A program made the position numbers and the translations under genes. From Desertivirga arenae (GTDB lineage Bacteria; Bacteroidota; Bacteroidia; Sphingobacteriales; Sphingobacteriaceae): a stretch of 64,000 nucleotides of DNA. Position 1 is the stretch's first letter. The number at the start of each line of letters is the position of its first letter. The stretch spans positions 1 to 64,000 of the forward strand of contig NZ_JAFEWE010000019.1 of assembly GCF_017355785.1 (NCBI RefSeq), in the 5' to 3' direction. Under the pieces are notes generated by a model. That model was not told the origin of the DNA. It made no database searches and saw only the letters and a program-made list of their open reading frames with translations. Positions 20,223-27,041 of the stretch are shown here, piece after piece.

Positions 20223-20253
20223 TTTAACGGTTTAAATTTAGAAATTTAAGTAT

Positions 20254-20291
20254 AAAAAAGCGGCTCATCGATTTCTGAGCCGCTTTTTTAT
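20254..20291. terminator. bidirectional terminator between subtilase and the phosphoesterase gene
   Basis: A 9-bp stem (AGCGGCTCA / TGAGCCGCT) with A-run before and T-run after fits a terminator acting in both directions, between two convergent genes. Confidence 0.85.
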
Positions 20292-20300
20292 TGCCTTTAA

Positions 20301-23300
20301 TTAAAAAGCGAAGCCACCATTGATGGAAAAATAGCCTCCTTCTTTAGACATTCCGTAACCTGCTGAAACGAGAAACTTATTGTAGAAGTTAACCCATATA
20401 CCTGGCCCATAACCTGTGTGCCAGGTATTCTTCTCAGGATTATCAGAAAATACTCTTCCCGAATCAAAGAAGCCGAAAACTCCGTATGTCCCTGTCAAAA
20501 AGTAGTTTCGTACGTTAGATACTGTTAATCGAAGTTCTGTATTGTTGAACAAATAGCTCCTGCCTGCGAACCTGTTATTTCTGTAGCCTCTTAAATATGT
20601 ATTGCTTCCCAATGAATTAGCCTGAAAAAACTTATAATCACCAATATTCGTAGCAGCGCCAAATTGAACCGCAAGTGTCATTGGGAAACTAAAATTAGGT
20701 GTTCCATAAAAAGCAACATTACTTTTTAGCTGTAAGAAGTTGTGACCTGTTCCTCTGACTTCAGAAAAATACCTTGCGCTGTTAAACCATCTAATACCGC
20801 GAGTAGGAAAAATCTCCTGATCTACATAGTTAAGATTGGCAAAGGTGTTTACGGTTGCGAAACGGGAAGGATTATCGGTGTCCTTTTTATCCGGAAAATC
20901 CGCACTAGTAAGGAACCTGTTATCTTGTTTTTCCAGCCAGTAGTGCTCATAACCCGGCCCGATTCCTACTCTGAAAGCTTCTGTGAAGCGTTTCTGATAG
21001 AAGGCAGCAAGGCTCAAATTCTTTGTCCTTACCCTGAAGAAGTCGATGTCGTCCCCAATGTTAGGCGTCGAGTTACCCTCTCCGTAATAGTTGAAAGTAT
21101 ATTTAGGTCCATTGAAAGAACTGCGTATCAGCAAGTCGTTGTTTCGTTTAAAGAGTGAATAGAAATCTCCCTTGTAGTTTATTGTATAGGCTCCTGTTTT
21201 AGGTGCATAATTTGCTTTAACTGTTTGTTTGTAGCTGTAAGGTTGCTTTCTAAATCCGTAGTGGACCCTTGAAAAACCTGCCCCAAAAAAGAAACCATCG
21301 TCTGCATTGTAATCGAAAGACGGAAGGGGAGTAGCTATATCATAGTTAAACCAGTTTGGATCATAATAGTGAATGTAAGGGTTACCTGATAATTGAGTGC
21401 GAAGATTGTCTCCTTTATCTATTTTGTTACCTTCATTGCTGTCATAAAAAACAATTGAATTGCCCAGGGCTGCTTCACTCTTATCGGCAATAAAGTCTTT
21501 ACCTTCACCTCCCACAACTCTGACCTTTATTTTAGATTTGTCTCCGCTTGCAACGATACTATCTCGTCCGCTAAGTGTAAAGATCTGAATTTCATCAGTT
21601 TCGGTTTTTTTGAAGGTTCGATCATAAATAGTTTGTTCAATCTTTTCTTCGCGGTTGATCTTGTTGATTTTTATCCGTGTGCTATCTCCGAGGCCAATGA
21701 TTTGCACAAACTCCTTTTTGTCGGTGCCGGAGATGCGGACTTCCCTGGCGAGCTCTTTGTAGTAATCTTCTGCAACTTGTGTTATCTGGCTGCGTCTTGC
21801 TTTCAATTTGGCACTTATTTCCTCTCCAGACATTTTATATGCTTCTGGAGGCATACTCCTTACAGCCGAATCAATAGTTGCATCTGTTAATTTGCTCTTA
21901 ATATCGTTAGAGATTTCCATCCATTCATTGGAGGTTAATTTATTTAAGAAGTTCCTGTCCAGATTTCGGGCTGCGGTATTTATTTTTTTAACGTTTTTTA
22001 TTCTGTCTGTGAACGCTTCAATGCCCGGGGCTATGCTGCTTACCAATGACGGGATAAAACCGTCGTATTTAGAAAATGCCTGATCATGATCACGAGGAAT
22101 AGGACGGAATAACGAACCTTTTTCCTTTTTAAATTCGGCCCATCGCCATTGGTCCTCATGGCGGTCCCAGTCATTGATCAACATATCGAATAGCCTTGCT
22201 CTCAGGAACATCTTCTGGTCTACTTCGTTATCATTGTCCTCACGTATTTCCTCATACATTTTCCGGGTACTAACAGCTTTATCTGCATTTCCAAAAGCTT
22301 TTACCCCTGATACGTCTTCGTCGGGCCTTATTTCGATGGTTCCTAACTTGCCTCCCACTTGCTGAATGTAAGGCCCAAGCAAACGGCTTGCCGGCATATA
22401 CACTAGCTGGGGATTAACATAATAGATGCCGATCTTTTTAGCCATTGGCGGAATTACCAAACCTCCATAAGGGTTTGCCGAAGATATCTGATCCTGAAGG
22501 AAATCTTCGGCAAAGGTTTTTACAAGTCCCTGCGGGAGCAACGAACTAGGATCTTTACTGATAGATCTGAACTGGTAAAGCTTTCCATCTTTTCCTTGTA
22601 GCTGTAAGGAGGTTGTCTGTTTTCCTCCACCCATTTTTATCGGGGTTAGTCCTCCTCCGTAGGTTGAAAGGTCGAGATATGGCGCAGTGACGGGCACTGC
22701 CCAGGTATCACGATAGTGTTCACCATACAGGCGTCTTCTATACCCGCTGGCCTGATACTCTTCACCTGCTGCAATAACCTTTACACTGTCTTTATAATTC
22801 AGCTGTTTTTCTTCAGCCAGTTCTACTTTGCCTTTGGGTGGAATTGCATACAGTGGAGTCCGGAAAACAAGTTTGCCTGTCGACCCGTCTCCTTCAGGTT
22901 CCCAGAATTCCACCCAGCACTGACCGTTATCGTAGTAATTCAAACGGGCGAAGCCTTTATCTCCATGAGCAAAACTAGCTCCATTGCCTTTTACCAGGGG
23001 ACTTGATTTTGATCCTGCACCACTGATAATATGGTTCAGGTTCTCGTATTTGTTAAATTGTAAAGCGTGCTCATGCCCCGTTGCCATCACAACGTTCGGT
23101 TCGTCTGCAAGAATGGCAAGTAAACCCCGTTTCAACTGCTGATAGTCCTTGTTGGAAAGGTCCTGGGGGGAAACTCCATATTTCCGCATCAGGGGATAAA
23201 TTGATCCGATAACCGGAAGTGGAATATAGGCCCTATCTCGTATAAGGGTTAATGGGAATATATAGTCTTTTAGCGAAAAGAATCCTCCGTGTGTACCATT

Positions 23301-24056
23301 GGTAAACAAGGGATGATGTTGAGCAAGCAAAATATTTTTTCCTTTGTTACGAACGATAATATCTTTCACTTGCTCGATAACTTCAAGACGACTTCCTGCA
23401 GTACAGCCATTGTCGGGGGCTATCGGCTTTTCATATTTATGCAACCACCATTCACTGTCGATAAGGATCATTACCAGATCTTTATTCACCTGTAGCTCGA
23501 CAGGCCCGGGACAACCATTGGTAGGTATGAAGGTATCTCCGTCGTTCAGATATGCTTCTACGAATGCTTCTTCGCGATTAACTGCTGCCAGCCCTCCCGG
23601 CCTCATCTCGTTCCAGTCGTGATTTCCGGGGATGAAGATCTTTTTGCCCCTGAAGTTTTTTACAACCTTCATCTGTTCAACTATTCTTCGCTCCTTTTCC
23701 TTCCGGTCTGCCGCTTCGGGCTCTGGTAAACCGGTCTCGTAGATGTTATCTCCAAGGAATATTATAATATCTTCTGGCCTTGAATAATTAGTATCTGCTG
23801 CCGAAAGAGTTGTTCTTGTACTATCATAAAGTTGTTTCTGCAATAATTTCAAAACAGGTTCCTGCCGGTTATCACTAGGTTTTCCAGCATCTCCTATTAA
23901 AAAGACCGAATATTTGAGTTTTATAGAGTCGGGTGGCGAAACTTCATTCCACTTTGATTGATTCTTCGCGTAATACGGCTTCAAGCTTATGCAGCTGCTT
24001 AAGGGAAGGAAACTTAACAGAACGTAAAAAAAGCACTTCACTAACTTACTCTGCAT
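20301..24056 (-). CDS. lipoprotein fusion: metallophosphoesterase, kinase-like region, outer-membrane beta-barrel
   Basis: A 1251-residue protein with a lipobox LSSC (Cys about 22). Residues about 50-400 form a calcineurin-type phosphoesterase: IGDAG (Asp 56), LGDN (103-104), GNHDW (144-148), AQHHPL (247-248) and GHEH (327-330). Residues about 440-780 contain NDWDRH (Asp 631, His 633), and PRDHDQAF (654-661), which resemble catalytic motifs of CotH/FAM20-like atypical kinases. From about 900 to the C-terminal Phe lies a BamA/TamA-type beta-barrel with alternating strands. The protein is therefore probably anchored in the outer membrane with its enzymatic part in the periplasm or outside. The 5' end overlaps the neighbouring lipoprotein gene by 11 bp. 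The kinase assignment is my inference. Confidence 0.8.
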   Translation of the reverse strand: MQSKLVKCFFYVLLSFLPLSSCISLKPYYAKNQSKWNEVSPPDSIKLKYSVFLIGDAGKPSDNRQEPVLKLLQKQLYDSTRTTLSAADTNYSRPEDIIIFLGDNIYETGLPEPEAADRKEKERRIVEQMKVVKNFRGKKIFIPGNHDWNEMRPGGLAAVNREEAFVEAYLNDGDTFIPTNGCPGPVELQVNKDLVMILIDSEWWLHKYEKPIAPDNGCTAGSRLEVIEQVKDIIVRNKGKNILLAQHHPLFTNGTHGGFFSLKDYIFPLTLIRDRAYIPLPVIGSIYPLMRKYGVSPQDLSNKDYQQLKRGLLAILADEPNVVMATGHEHALQFNKYENLNHIISGAGSKSSPLVKGNGASFAHGDKGFARLNYYDNGQCWVEFWEPEGDGSTGKLVFRTPLYAIPPKGKVELAEEKQLNYKDSVKVIAAGEEYQASGYRRRLYGEHYRDTWAVPVTAPYLDLSTYGGGLTPIKMGGGKQTTSLQLQGKDGKLYQFRSISKDPSSLLPQGLVKTFAEDFLQDQISSANPYGGLVIPPMAKKIGIYYVNPQLVYMPASRLLGPYIQQVGGKLGTIEIRPDEDVSGVKAFGNADKAVSTRKMYEEIREDNDNEVDQKMFLRARLFDMLINDWDRHEDQWRWAEFKKEKGSLFRPIPRDHDQAFSKYDGFIPSLVSSIAPGIEAFTDRIKNVKKINTAARNLDRNFLNKLTSNEWMEISNDIKSKLTDATIDSAVRSMPPEAYKMSGEEISAKLKARRSQITQVAEDYYKELAREVRISGTDKKEFVQIIGLGDSTRIKINKINREEKIEQTIYDRTFKKTETDEIQIFTLSGRDSIVASGDKSKIKVRVVGGEGKDFIADKSEAALGNSIVFYDSNEGNKIDKGDNLRTQLSGNPYIHYYDPNWFNYDIATPLPSFDYNADDGFFFGAGFSRVHYGFRKQPYSYKQTVKANYAPKTGAYTINYKGDFYSLFKRNNDLLIRSSFNGPKYTFNYYGEGNSTPNIGDDIDFFRVRTKNLSLAAFYQKRFTEAFRVGIGPGYEHYWLEKQDNRFLTSADFPDKKDTDNPSRFATVNTFANLNYVDQEIFPTRGIRWFNSARYFSEVRGTGHNFLQLKSNVAFYGTPNFSFPMTLAVQFGAATNIGDYKFFQANSLGSNTYLRGYRNNRFAGRSYLFNNTELRLTVSNVRNYFLTGTYGVFGFFDSGRVFSDNPEKNTWHTGYGPGIWVNFYNKFLVSAGYGMSKEGGYFSINGGFAF

Positions 24057-24972
24057 AATTAACCTCTATTATATTAGCTGGAAATTTTTTTCCTTCATTC
24101 GAGATATATAGCTTACCATCTGGTGAAAAGGCGAGCCCCTCGGGCTGGCTGAATTCTTTACCATCAAATTCCAATATCCGTGTTATTTTACTGGTCTTAT
24201 CAAGGATCGCTATTACATTATTTAAAGAAGATAACGCATAAAGTTCTCCCGTTTGAGGATTAAGGGTGATCGCAGATGTCCGGAATACCTCGTTTAAGTT
24301 TTTATTCCCGACCGTCTTTAGTAGTTTTTTCGAGAACTCTTCCAGCTTGTCGCCGGAAAAATAACTCTCCACTTCTGTCAAACTGATGGAATAAACAGCT
24401 TTCGTATTGAGGGTTTTTGTTTTTAGATCAAAAGCGTAAATGTCTTTGTGAGATTTATCTCCGTCAAGGCTCAAGTCCTTCACTGATAACAGGAGGCGGT
24501 TATTTTTTTGATCATATGCCAACCCTTCCATGTTGTTTTCTGAGCTAAGCGGTGTTTTGTAAACCGTAGGCCTGGAAATACCCGCTTTAAAATTTTTCAT
24601 TTCGTACAACGTACCATTGCTCTGCAGGACGTAAAGATCGTTACCTGCGATAACGAGATCTTCATAGTCTTTCCCCTTCCAAAAATCTTGTTTCTTTACG
24701 ATTTCTTTTTGAATGAGATCATAGTAATAAAGGATCCCTTCTTCATCTTGAATAGCGATAACGGTATGGTCGTCCAGGAAAGCTATTCCAGAGATCTCTT
24801 TAAGTTCCATAGGTAATGGATAAAGCTTTGTGTCGTCTGGTTCGAGCACCTCTTTATCTCTCTCTGATTGCTCGGTCTTATCCTCCTTTCCGGCTTCTGA
24901 CCGGTTTTTACTGTCGGAGTTTTGACAGGAAGTTAAAAAAGCTACTAACAAAAAAGCAAATATTCTGTTCAT
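24046..24972 (-). CDS. SdiA-regulated domain lipoprotein
   Basis: A 308-residue protein with a lipobox LTSC (Cys about 16) and a Lys/Glu/Asp-rich linker. A beta-propeller-like domain of the SdiA-regulated (YjiK) type follows: LKEISGIAFLDD, NNMEGLAYDQ, SAITLNPQTGELYALSS and QPEGLAFSPDGKLYISNEG. Such proteins bind or hydrolyse unknown ligands at the cell surface. Its 3' end overlaps the start of the large phosphoesterase fusion gene by 11 bp, so the two are translated together and may act as partners. Confidence 0.85.
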   Translation of the reverse strand: MNRIFAFLLVAFLTSCQNSDSKNRSEAGKEDKTEQSERDKEVLEPDDTKLYPLPMELKEISGIAFLDDHTVIAIQDEEGILYYYDLIQKEIVKKQDFWKGKDYEDLVIAGNDLYVLQSNGTLYEMKNFKAGISRPTVYKTPLSSENNMEGLAYDQKNNRLLLSVKDLSLDGDKSHKDIYAFDLKTKTLNTKAVYSISLTEVESYFSGDKLEEFSKKLLKTVGNKNLNEVFRTSAITLNPQTGELYALSSLNNVIAILDKTSKITRILEFDGKEFSQPEGLAFSPDGKLYISNEGKKFPANIIEVNYAE

Positions 24973-25147: not shown

Positions 25148-26353
25148 ATGAAAAATAATAACCCTATTGTTAAAAGCGCTCAGGAGTTTGTTTTCAATTT
25201 ACTGCGCGAGAAGTTAAAACCAGACTTTGTTTACCATAACTATAAGCATACATTGCAAACCGCAAAGGCATGCCGTGAACTGGCAGAAGCCTATAATCTA
25301 ACCAGTCGCGACTTTGAAATCTTAATGCTTGCAGCTCTTTTTCACGACACCGGTTACACAGAAACTTGCCAGGGGCACGAAGAAGTAAGTGTTAGAATAC
25401 TGAAAGATTTTCTAAAGAATGATTATCCGCAGGAAGATATAAATAAGATTGAGGATTTGATCTTATCGACGAAGGCGTCCTCAAAACCGAGCGGTACGCT
25501 TCAGGAAATACTACATGATGCGGATTATATAAATATGGGTAAGAAGCGGTTTGCTGAACGTGCAGAGTTGCTTCGTATTGAGTGGGAGAGGGTGTTGAAT
25601 AAGAAGTACACCGATTTGGAGTGGGCGGAAGAACAGTTAGGTTTTTTGATTTCAAAATCTTTTGTAACGGAAGAAGCTACGGTTCAATTTGGCGACTTTA
25701 GAGAGGAGAACATAAGGAAGCAGCGTGAAAAAATAGAAGTTTTGAGAGTTGAGTATGAAAAGTTGAAGGTTAAGCTTGAAAAAAACACGCCGGACAATAA
25801 GCCGAAAAAGGAAGGTCGCGGAATTGAAACTCTTTATCGTGCAGTTTATTCATATCATATCAATCTCAGTTCTATTGCCGACAATAAAGCCAATATAATG
25901 ATCAGTATTAACACTATTATTATTTCACTGGTAATAACGCTCTTTGGTTCTGGCTATACTTTTTCAGGGCAGGATGAGTTCGGCAGTCTTCGCTTTGTAA
26001 TACCTATTGCACTTCTGTTGGTAACAAGTTTACTCGCTGTAGTATTTGCTATATTATCCTCAAGGCCTAATGTTACTACAAAAGAACGTTATGAGCTTTC
26101 TAAAAAGGATAGCAGTATTTTGTTCTTCGGAAATTTCGCTCAATTGCAGCTTAATGAGTTTTTGGGCAGAATGAAAGAATTGAAGGACCGGAATGATGAA
26201 TTGTATGACAGTATGACGGTAGATATTTATTACCTGGGTGCTGTATTGGTTAAAAAGTATAAGTTGTTAAGCTGGTCTTATAATATCTTTATGGGTGGCC
26301 TCATCCTATGTGCAATGGGCTTCGTAATAATAATGATGTTCTCCTATGGTTAA
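25148..26353 (+). CDS. HD-domain protein fused to a Pycsar-effector-type (PycTM-like) membrane domain
   Basis: A 401-residue protein. The N-terminal part (about 15-170) is an HD hydrolase domain: His34 (YKHTLQT), His66-Asp67 (LFHDTGYT), His77 and Asp124 (LHDADYI) supply the metal ligands. A charged helical linker follows (about 185-222). Residues about 226-401 match the Pycsar effector (PycTM, DUF5706-type) layout: IETLYRAVYSYHINLSSIAD, then KAN, with TM1 about 249-269, TM2 about 283-303, an SRPNV motif and TM3 about 378-398. In Pycsar systems such membrane effectors respond to cCMP or cUMP and kill infected cells. Here the effector part is fused to a possible phosphodiesterase. It faces a cyclase-homology gene across 52 bp. 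Confidence 0.8.
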   Translation: MKNNNPIVKSAQEFVFNLLREKLKPDFVYHNYKHTLQTAKACRELAEAYNLTSRDFEILMLAALFHDTGYTETCQGHEEVSVRILKDFLKNDYPQEDINKIEDLILSTKASSKPSGTLQEILHDADYINMGKKRFAERAELLRIEWERVLNKKYTDLEWAEEQLGFLISKSFVTEEATVQFGDFREENIRKQREKIEVLRVEYEKLKVKLEKNTPDNKPKKEGRGIETLYRAVYSYHINLSSIADNKANIMISINTIIISLVITLFGSGYTFSGQDEFGSLRFVIPIALLLVTSLLAVVFAILSSRPNVTTKERYELSKKDSSILFFGNFAQLQLNEFLGRMKELKDRNDELYDSMTVDIYYLGAVLVKKYKLLSWSYNIFMGGLILCAMGFVIIMMFSYG

Positions 26354-26366
26354 AAACCTTCGGGCT

Positions 26367-26384
26367 AAGCAGCAAGTGCTGCTT
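26367..26384. terminator. hairpin between the convergent HD-PycTM-like and DUF2652 genes
   Basis: AAGCAGC-AAGT-GCTGCTT forms a 7-bp perfect stem. It is placed where a shared terminator would be, but has no clear T-run, so its strength is uncertain. Confidence 0.35.
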
Positions 26385-26405
26385 GGCTCTTATAATTCGT
26401 GTCAG

Positions 26406-27041
26406 TTAGGGCTTTACCGGTTGAACTGCCTCGATGAACTGCCGCTGGTAAGGAATATAGTAATAATGTACCTGTCCCAAATGATCATATTCTTCTGTGC
26501 CTTGCTTTAGCTCGTCCCAATGGAACCAAAAACTTACATCTTTCTTTTTTATCTTATTCAGGTAGCTTTCCGTTAAAAGGATATATTCGTATTCTTCGAT
26601 TCCGTTTTTCAAAAGTTTATGAGTGATTATTACATCTTCTCCTATAAGCTTAGTTCGTCCTTTAATATTGGCAGAGCTAATATGACCAAAATGGATAATG
26701 ATCTTTAATCCAAGTCCTCCATTCGCCAAATGCTTTTCATAATTCTCAGGATCTTCTTTTTGCACAACGTCAATGTAATTGTAAAAAGTTTCAAATAAGC
26801 TTTGACACTGTTTTGCAACTTGCTTAATAGCAGGCAGTCTACCTGTTCTGTAAAAGAAAATAGCATCCCCCTCGATCTCTCCTATATTCATACGCAGCAT
26901 GTTCGCATTTATCAACCGCCTGAGTAGTCCTGCAATGAAGTCCTTGCTAAAGGAAATATCTGCCGTGGCGATAAATTTCGTAAAGCCCGTGATGTCTGGT
27001 ACGCAAAAAAAAGCTGGTAAAATGTCGTCGTTTTTTTCCAT
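26406..27041 (-). CDS. DUF2652-type cyclase-homology-domain protein
   Basis: A 211-residue protein whose core resembles class III nucleotide cyclases. VPDITGFTKF (Asp16) matches the first metal-binding motif and GEIEGDAIFF (Asp59) the second; the substrate-position residue four before Asp59 is Glu. In the segment equal to the VNxAxRL motif it reads VIITHKLLK, so the transition-state Asn and Arg are Ile and Lys. This is the pattern of DUF2652 proteins. Catalysis is thus doubtful, or the chemistry differs; nucleotide binding is plausible. It is convergent with the HD-PycTM-like gene, with 52 bp between. Confidence 0.75.
   Translation of the reverse strand: MEKNDDILPAFFCVPDITGFTKFIATADISFSKDFIAGLLRRLINANMLRMNIGEIEGDAIFFYRTGRLPAIKQVAKQCQSLFETFYNYIDVVQKEDPENYEKHLANGGLGLKIIIHFGHISSANIKGRTKLIGEDVIITHKLLKNGIEEYEYILLTESYLNKIKKKDVSFWFHWDELKQGTEEYDHLGQVHYYYIPYQRQFIEAVQPVKP

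Follow-up and report, generated by a model that had tools for sequence, protein, structure and literature searches.

A Desertivirga arenae lipoprotein that joins a purple-acid-type phosphatase and a predicted kinase-fold domain to a BamA-type barrel

The gene analyzed here lies in a 64,000-nucleotide stretch of Desertivirga arenae DNA (the window; NCBI RefSeq assembly GCF_017355785.1, contig NZ_JAFEWE010000019.1, positions 1 to 64,000) and encodes a lipoprotein in which a phosphatase domain and a domain with a predicted kinase fold precede an outer membrane barrel. A first-pass annotation of this DNA had described a single lipoprotein reading frame with calcineurin-type motifs, a possible atypical kinase in its middle region, and a barrel ending in Phe, so that one surface protein might both add and remove phosphate or process phosphorylated polymers. 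The reading frame was confirmed, on the minus strand, a point absent from that annotation, and its product carries the lipobox cysteine of a bacterial lipoprotein (LSSC, Cys22, identified by eye). The genes and features of the locus are the following.

20301–24056, minus strand: coding sequence of 1251 amino acids with lipoprotein signal, phosphatase, kinase-fold domain, beta linker, and 16-strand barrel (open reading frame, Pfam, models)
23991–24056, minus strand: signal peptide with lipobox-like LSSC, Cys22 (residues 1–22; by eye, hydropathy check)
22842–23924, minus strand: phosphatase domain, assigned to the purple-acid type (residues 45–405; PF00149, profile match, residue conservation)
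21741–22796, minus strand: predicted atypical kinase-fold domain (about residues 421–772; AlphaFold2, Foldseek, VIA-align)
22146–22172, minus strand: putative catalytic-loop segment DWDRHEDQW (residues 629–637; conservation in 69 regions)
22074–22097, minus strand: putative metal-site segment PRDHDQAF (residues 654–661; conservation in 69 regions)
21387–21740, minus strand: all-beta linker domain (about residues 773–890; DSSP of the model)
20304–21338, minus strand: 16-strand Omp85/BamA-type barrel (about residues 907–1251; PF01103, Foldseek, strand count)
24046–24972, minus strand: beta-propeller lipoprotein of 308 amino acids, SdiA-regulated/phytase-like (Pfam; recurrent partner)
20252–20291, minus strand: intrinsic-terminator-like hairpin of 16 pairs followed by a T-rich tail, just past the stop codon of the coding sequence (simple scan)
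25148–26353, plus strand: HD-PycTM protein (Pfam; frequent neighbor across relatives)
26406–27041, minus strand: DUF2652 protein (Pfam; adjoins HD-PycTM in several loci)

Pfam matched Metallophos at residues 54–263 (28.5 bits against a gathering cut-off of 21.5) and Omp85 at residues 985–1228 (31.7 bits against 24) of the window protein, and found no match between these two domains. The propeller lipoprotein gene comes next upstream and shares 11 bases with the start of the coding sequence. A hairpin scan of the window returned 6 sites where 4.4 were expected; the one after the coding sequence has the longest stem, the others having 5–6 pairs. Because of the overlap and the terminator-like hairpin behind the stop codon, the two genes probably share one transcript.

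Relatives were collected from whole genomes across the phylum and from named genome contigs, with 80 loci retained from the latter out of at least 587 stretches encoding a relative. The middle region was present in 70 of 198 genomes drawn across Bacteroidota, the window's own genome included, and the named loci listed also come from Ignavibacteria, Calditrichaceae, Gemmatimonadetes, Balneolaceae, and Rhodothermales metagenome-assembled genomes. Among the matches listed, from which very near records were possibly excluded, the nearest named relative is that of Desertivirga xinjiangensis (Sphingobacteriaceae), with 69% identity in the best segment of the middle region. None of 19 pattern-matching stretches on viral contigs encodes a relative. 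The named loci (L078–L157) were collected with the pattern WDRHx[DG]QW, which biases DRH motif counts there; unbiased motif counts come from 69 middle regions (68 homologues and the window's own, chosen without regard to motif) and from 61 relatives not selected by motif.

The 163 distinct relatives comprise 99 three-domain proteins, 25 kinase-barrel proteins, 23 kinase-fold domains alone, 12 phosphatases alone, and 4 other forms. The same parts also occur as separate genes: at one locus (L068) the kinase, the phosphatase, and the barrel are each encoded by a gene of their own, side by side and in the same orientation; at three others (L139, L141, and L072) a phosphatase gene directly precedes a kinase-barrel gene; and at L144 the kinase and barrel are two open reading frames, which may reflect a frameshift. 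Several kinase-only forms of 401–423 amino acids (L061, L062, L063, L064, and L069) have a single hydrophobic, anchor-like N-terminal stretch, and one of them (L061, G000:C34) is encoded in the window's own genome.

The calcineurin-type motifs reported earlier are all present in the window protein: GDAG (D56), GDNIY (D103), GNHDW (N145–W148), and GHEH (H328, H330). A PDB sequence search with the single protein returned tartrate-resistant acid phosphatase (TRAP) alone, at E 0.5–0.65. A profile built from 53 phosphatase domains of the family matched seven distinct PDB sequences at E ≤ 0.01; six of the seven are purple or tartrate-resistant acid phosphatases (best E 8.4e-15), and the other is glideosome-associated protein 50 (3e-10). 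Purple acid phosphatases are marked by the motif blocks GDxG, GDNxY, GNHD, HH, and GHxH, all of which occur in the window protein. By sequence resemblance, the domain is of the purple-acid type.

At the C terminus, the annotated barrel ending in Phe stands, with PF01103 over its cut-off. In a model of residues 52–1251 (60 sequences, mean per-residue confidence (pLDDT) 87.8, predicted template modeling score (pTM) 0.77), DSSP assigns 16 barrel strands, counted by eye. Foldseek gave BamA as the best match to the barrel (E 6.1e-10), and the best 50 rows are BamA, TamA, SAM, and TOC barrels. Residues 773–890 are all beta in the model, with no POTRA-like helices in the linker; POTRA domains differ from such an all-beta make-up. 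A GGxGxD-like segment lies within this linker (residues about 773–890, positions 21387–21740).

In BamA-type barrels both ends, and thus the N-terminal part, normally face the periplasm. For this reason the phosphatase and kinase-fold domains probably sit in the periplasm, and the earlier description of a "surface protein" is doubtful. As a check of export, we scored each protein for a 13-residue stretch with mean Kyte-Doolittle hydropathy ≥ 1.8 within its first 90 residues. Such a stretch occurs in 136 of 147 kinase-domain proteins (96/99 three-domain, 18/25 kinase-barrel, and 22/23 kinase-only proteins), compared with 0/17 PPK1, 0/16 HipA, and 2/9 DUF2652 control proteins. Thus, the kinase-fold domain appears to be exported in nearly all forms, as far as hydropathy can tell. 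The 11 proteins below threshold (L034, L077, L126; L021, L072, L112, L136, L139:1316, L150, L153; L129) include two that start at a contig edge (L112 and L126), several with uncertain starts, and two just under the threshold (L021 and L136). Among phosphatase-only proteins 8 of 12 have the stretch, and one that lacks it (L071) is encoded in the window's own genome. A simple lipobox pattern was found in 30 of the 99 three-domain relatives, a low estimate since start sites are uncertain and starts were assumed to be the first ATG, GTG, or TTG.

For the middle region, the first-pass annotation had proposed comparing a predicted structure with CotH, FAM20C, and HipA. AlphaFold2 modeled residues 411–905 from 86 aligned sequences with mean pLDDT 94.7 and pTM 0.93. 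Searched against the PDB with Foldseek, this model has CtkA as its six best matches (E 7.9e-7 to 7.8e-6), followed among others by PI4KIIalpha (E 4.6e-5); eight chains fall under 1e-3, the eighth being YihE, which we take to be another kinase-fold protein, and HipT is at E 1.1e-3. VIA-align, run on 992 chains and with Z < 8 possibly due to chance, gave Z 15.1 for PI4KIIbeta, 15.0 for CotH (3.9 Å over 253 residues), 13.4 for CtkA, 11.3 for HipA, and 10.6 for Fam20C; the aligned part spans model residues from about 48 to 360 (protein residues about 458–770). These results strongly support a predicted two-lobed, protein-kinase-like fold for the middle region. They also contradict a plain linker or propeller, the outcome that by the first-pass annotation would have refuted its kinase reading. 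That the region is such an ordinary element with coincidental motifs is hardly credible: the absence of a Pfam match alone speaks for it, and the confidence of the model, the fold matches, and the conservation described below contradict it.

The two motif segments noted before, NDWDRH (D629, D631–H633) and PRDHDQAF (654–661), are present and too nearly invariant across the 69 middle regions to be due to chance. The number of regions that have the commonest residue is 68 at R497, 68 at K501, 69 at D522, 68 at D629, 65 at D631, 67 at R632, 66 at H633, 64 at Q636, 68 at W637, 68 at D656, and 68 at D658; at position 657, 65 of the 69 have Arg and the window protein has His. All eight tested kinase positions are kept in 57 of the 61 relatives not selected by motif. 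From the alignment, D631, Q636 (Asn in 7 of 148 sequences), and D656 appear to match the kinase catalytic Asp, the metal-binding Asn/Gln, and the DFG-like Asp, and R497 and K501 (each in 147/148), the candidates for the beta-3 (ATP-binding) Lys, lie near a strand, with D522 (147/148), a candidate for its acidic partner on helix C, on the next helix. Equivalents of PKA D166 and N171 are retained in CotH, according to PMC12189002, and the five-residue spacing of D631 and Q636 is the same as that of PKA D166 and N171.

In sequence comparisons, a middle-region profile searched against PDB chains aligned the DRHNGNW of CtkA with DRHEDQW (E 0.45), and hhalign matched the GNWD and DyDntF of CotH to GDWD and DRDQAF with P 0.004 and a weak score, compared with P 0.06–0.54 for four unrelated control families. 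The PADLOC model PDC-M03A, whose matches coincide with HipA_C matches in several genomes, detects family members in two genomes (E 2.1e-7 and 1.2e-4) and matches window protein residues 614–762 at E 0.0025. This weak match was the only one that PADLOC gave for the window protein, and a reading as a defense protein was not adopted. The region was likewise rejected as a member of Pfam CotH (PF08757), HipA_C (PF07804), or PI3/PI4 kinase (PF00454), none of which scored over its gathering cut-off; PF00454 occurs in none of 61 genomes of the phylum, the window's genome included.

The atypical kinase of the first-pass annotation thus holds up in its predicted fold and in its nearly invariant D-R-H and D-x-D segments, and the fold lies nearer to PI4KII, CotH, and CtkA than to Fam20C. 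Type II phosphatidylinositol 4-kinases, which are eukaryotic lipid kinases, are the best fold match (Z 15.1), and the motifs DRGNDNW and DNGLAF, which we take to be theirs, resemble DRHEDQW and DRDQAF. CotH spore-coat kinases are alike in fold and, at weak score, in aligned motifs; they differ in that the window protein has no Pfam CotH match at E 0.1 and carries DRHxDQW, and CotH is known from spore coats, not from barrels. CtkA, HipA, and HipT are alike in that CtkA is the best Foldseek match, its DRH..NW aligned, and in the weak HipA-like PADLOC match; they differ in that PF07804 is unmatched in the window protein, and we know of no barrel or phosphatase in these kinases. The resemblance to PI4KII, one of the two best fold matches, bears on a different reading, in which the domain is catalytic with other chemistry (AMPylation, NMPylation, or polyglutamylation) or is a lipid or inositol kinase. 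Kinase folds with other chemistry exist, SidJ being an example; nothing in our data points to any particular alternative, and we regard this reading as rather unlikely.

The fate of the two putative active sites in the 99 three-domain proteins bears on which domain carries the core function. No tested kinase residue is missing in 97 of them, and no tested phosphatase residue in 81; both are intact in 80, the phosphatase alone is broken in 17, the kinase alone in 1 (L105, with Glu in place of D522), and both in 1. Thus, 18 of the 99 lack at least one of the seven tested phosphatase residues, a count in which misalignment may explain some of the cases with one or two losses, and in which one protein (L126) is cut by a contig end. 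Three or more of the seven are lost in 12 proteins, or 13 with L022, which is gapped there, and the loci of these proteins include Adhaeribacter, Rufibacter, Hymenobacter, Marinifilaceae-type, and Saprospiraceae members. Because the phosphatase site is broken more often, the kinase-fold domain seems to have the more constrained function.

Position 631 is Ser in five, Gly in one, and Glu in one of the 148 sequences. Each of the five Ser-631 copies (L065, L066, L090, L109, and L122) and the Glu-631 copy (L075) shares its locus with an intact copy; the Gly-631 copy (L073) has all three domains, and its phosphatase site is broken. Such a degenerate or D631-lacking copy beside an intact kinase paralogue resembles Fam20A and Fam20C, which form a pseudokinase-kinase pair. 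The Ser-631 paralogues, together with an exported location where we know of no ATP, fit a pseudo-enzyme, in which the kinase fold would be a binding or sensing module controlling the phosphatase or barrel. We think this quite unlikely, as the putative catalytic set survives in 97 of the 99 three-domain proteins, more often than the phosphatase set does, and as the kinase-fold domain is also found without phosphatase or barrel.

Recurrent neighbors accompany the gene across the family. Within 6 kb on each side of the match in the 80 named loci, we found an (HD-)PycTM cluster in 51, the propeller cluster in 33, PPK1 in 24, and a SixA-like phosphatase in 18. In a second set of 69 loci, drawn evenly and scanned over 9 kb per side (less at contig ends), (HD-)PycTM occurs in 45 (32 long, 13 PycTM only), propeller in 24, cyclase-type in 21, SixA in 8, PPK1 in 6, DUF2652 in 2, and DUF6268 in 1. 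As controls, 19 stretches at a distance of about 200 kb contained one short PycTM and one PPK1 gene and none of the other neighbor types. A cyclase- or DUF2652-type gene adjoining the (HD-)PycTM gene recurs (window positions 25148–27041, L078–L086, and L223–L227), and at L223 a kinase-fold family gene, a guanylate-cyclase-domain TPR protein gene, and a PycTM protein gene stand in a row. DUF2652 itself may be a cyclase, by resemblance; Pfam matched DUF2652 alone in that protein. A Pycsar-like signaling pair tied to the phosphatase-kinase enzyme is possible.

The association with PPK1 is left unsettled by the control stretches alone, and the named loci that have it are not independent, because 11 of the 24 are from Pontibacter, Rufibacter, or Hymenobacter. 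Assuming 1–2 copies per 4-Mb genome (the window's genome has two) and treating related genomes as independent, which they are not, 0.3 to 0.7 PPK1 genes would be expected by chance in 69 loci. Operon order is more telling than these counts. In five Sphingobacteriaceae loci (L265, L273, L309, L310, and L311, the last three added by hand and not evenly drawn), HD-PycTM, PPK1, propeller, and kinase-fold genes follow one another in this order on the same strand and overlap or lie <80 bases apart. The distant Carboxylicivirga locus L145 has the order PPK1, propeller, kinase-fold gene, HD-PycTM, and PPK1 stands in different orders in Pontibacter/Hymenobacter, Cyclobacteriaceae, and Ignavibacteria loci. 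At L077 (11501–17065), PPK1 and phosphatase-kinase-barrel share one open frame of 1855 amino acids; we did not accept this as a true fusion, because a signal-peptide-like stretch lies inside the frame and makes two starts in one frame likelier.

Based on these results, we favor, at somewhat better than even confidence, an exported enzyme anchored in the outer membrane, with a phosphatase and a phosphoryl-transferring kinase-fold domain on a BamA-type barrel. Both domains, the second resembling PI4KII, CotH, CtkA, and HipA, would be carried on the 16-strand barrel and most likely face the periplasm. The core function would be that of the kinase-fold domain, transfer of phosphoryl groups to an envelope substrate, with a lipid, a glycan, and the propeller lipoprotein encoded next to it as candidates, and the phosphatase domain might take these groups off again. 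A donor other than ATP would be needed, because no ATP is known to occur in the periplasm, and polyphosphate is a candidate, because PPK1 shares an operon with the gene in part of the family. Polyphosphate in place of ATP is the most speculative element of this proposal.

Several observations weigh against this reading. The lack of known ATP in the periplasm argues against an ordinary kinase, and the orientation is taken from what is generally known of BamA-type barrels. The Foldseek superpositions are loose, with template modeling scores for CtkA of 0.48–0.51 by target and root mean square deviations of 8–10 Å. Searches of Pfam, NCBIfam, and PDB sequences gave no significant match to the middle region (one of them listed 25 families, the most frequent among 46 at chance level); its profile finds nonsignificant PDB matches only, with YaaH (E 0.33) above CtkA. 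By hhalign, probabilities are low (CotH 8.3%, HipA 0.6%), and HipA, at P 0.09, is no better than the four unrelated controls. Five paralogues have Ser and one has Gly at D631, and one copy is degenerate. PPK1 is not near most loci: 63 of the 69 evenly drawn loci have none within 9 kb, one of the 19 controls held one, and in the window's genome both PPK1 genes lie on contigs other than that of the gene. A route of polyphosphate into the periplasm is conjecture.

The phosphatase type, the phytase-like propeller neighbor, and the PPK1 neighbor would also suit a machine for phosphorus acquisition, in which the phosphatase and a polyphosphate-binding or -hydrolyzing kinase fold feed a barrel that passes phosphate or polyphosphate. 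Table 1 of PMC8115612, on phosphate (Pi) starvation of Flavobacterium johnsoniae, gives as induced a PPK-like gene and a lipoprotein "putative phosphatase," Fjoh_3414, which would fit if they are related to the genes here. That table describes no phosphatase-barrel protein, the species' possession of the gene not being established, and several lineages have lost the phosphatase site and kept the kinase set. We judge phosphorus acquisition improbable.

Two further parallels concern the combination on a barrel and the pairing of kinase and phosphatase. PlpD has an enzyme N-terminal to an Omp85 barrel, and PlpD-type and other enzyme-Omp85 fusions are alike in this arrangement. In animals the Fam20C kinase is paired with the TRAP/ACP5 phosphatase, which is alike in setting a kinase fold outside the cytosol (Z 10.6) beside a TRAP-type phosphatase and differs in that these are separate eukaryotic proteins, as opposed to one polypeptide on a barrel. 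The first-pass annotation knew of no description of its combination, and we likewise found neither the fusion nor the kinase-fold family described in the titles and abstracts that full-text searches of open-licence papers returned, a weak indication given that subscription papers mostly fall outside this scope. The main text of the Omp85 survey PMC4104836 has no word starting with "phosphatase," "phosphoesterase," or "kinase."

In its boldest form, which we hold doubtful, the proposal describes a family of polyphosphate-fueled kinases that act at the periplasmic side of the outer membrane, many of them joined to a phosphatase in one polypeptide, as a bacterial counterpart of Fam20C and TRAP. 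If the proposal is true, many Bacteroidota and members of related phyla would carry out reversible phosphorylation in their envelope, which would be unexpected for lack of ATP there. The family would then serve as a bacterial model for a kinase and a phosphatase that work as a pair outside the cytoplasm, and the question of the phosphoryl donor would become directly testable.

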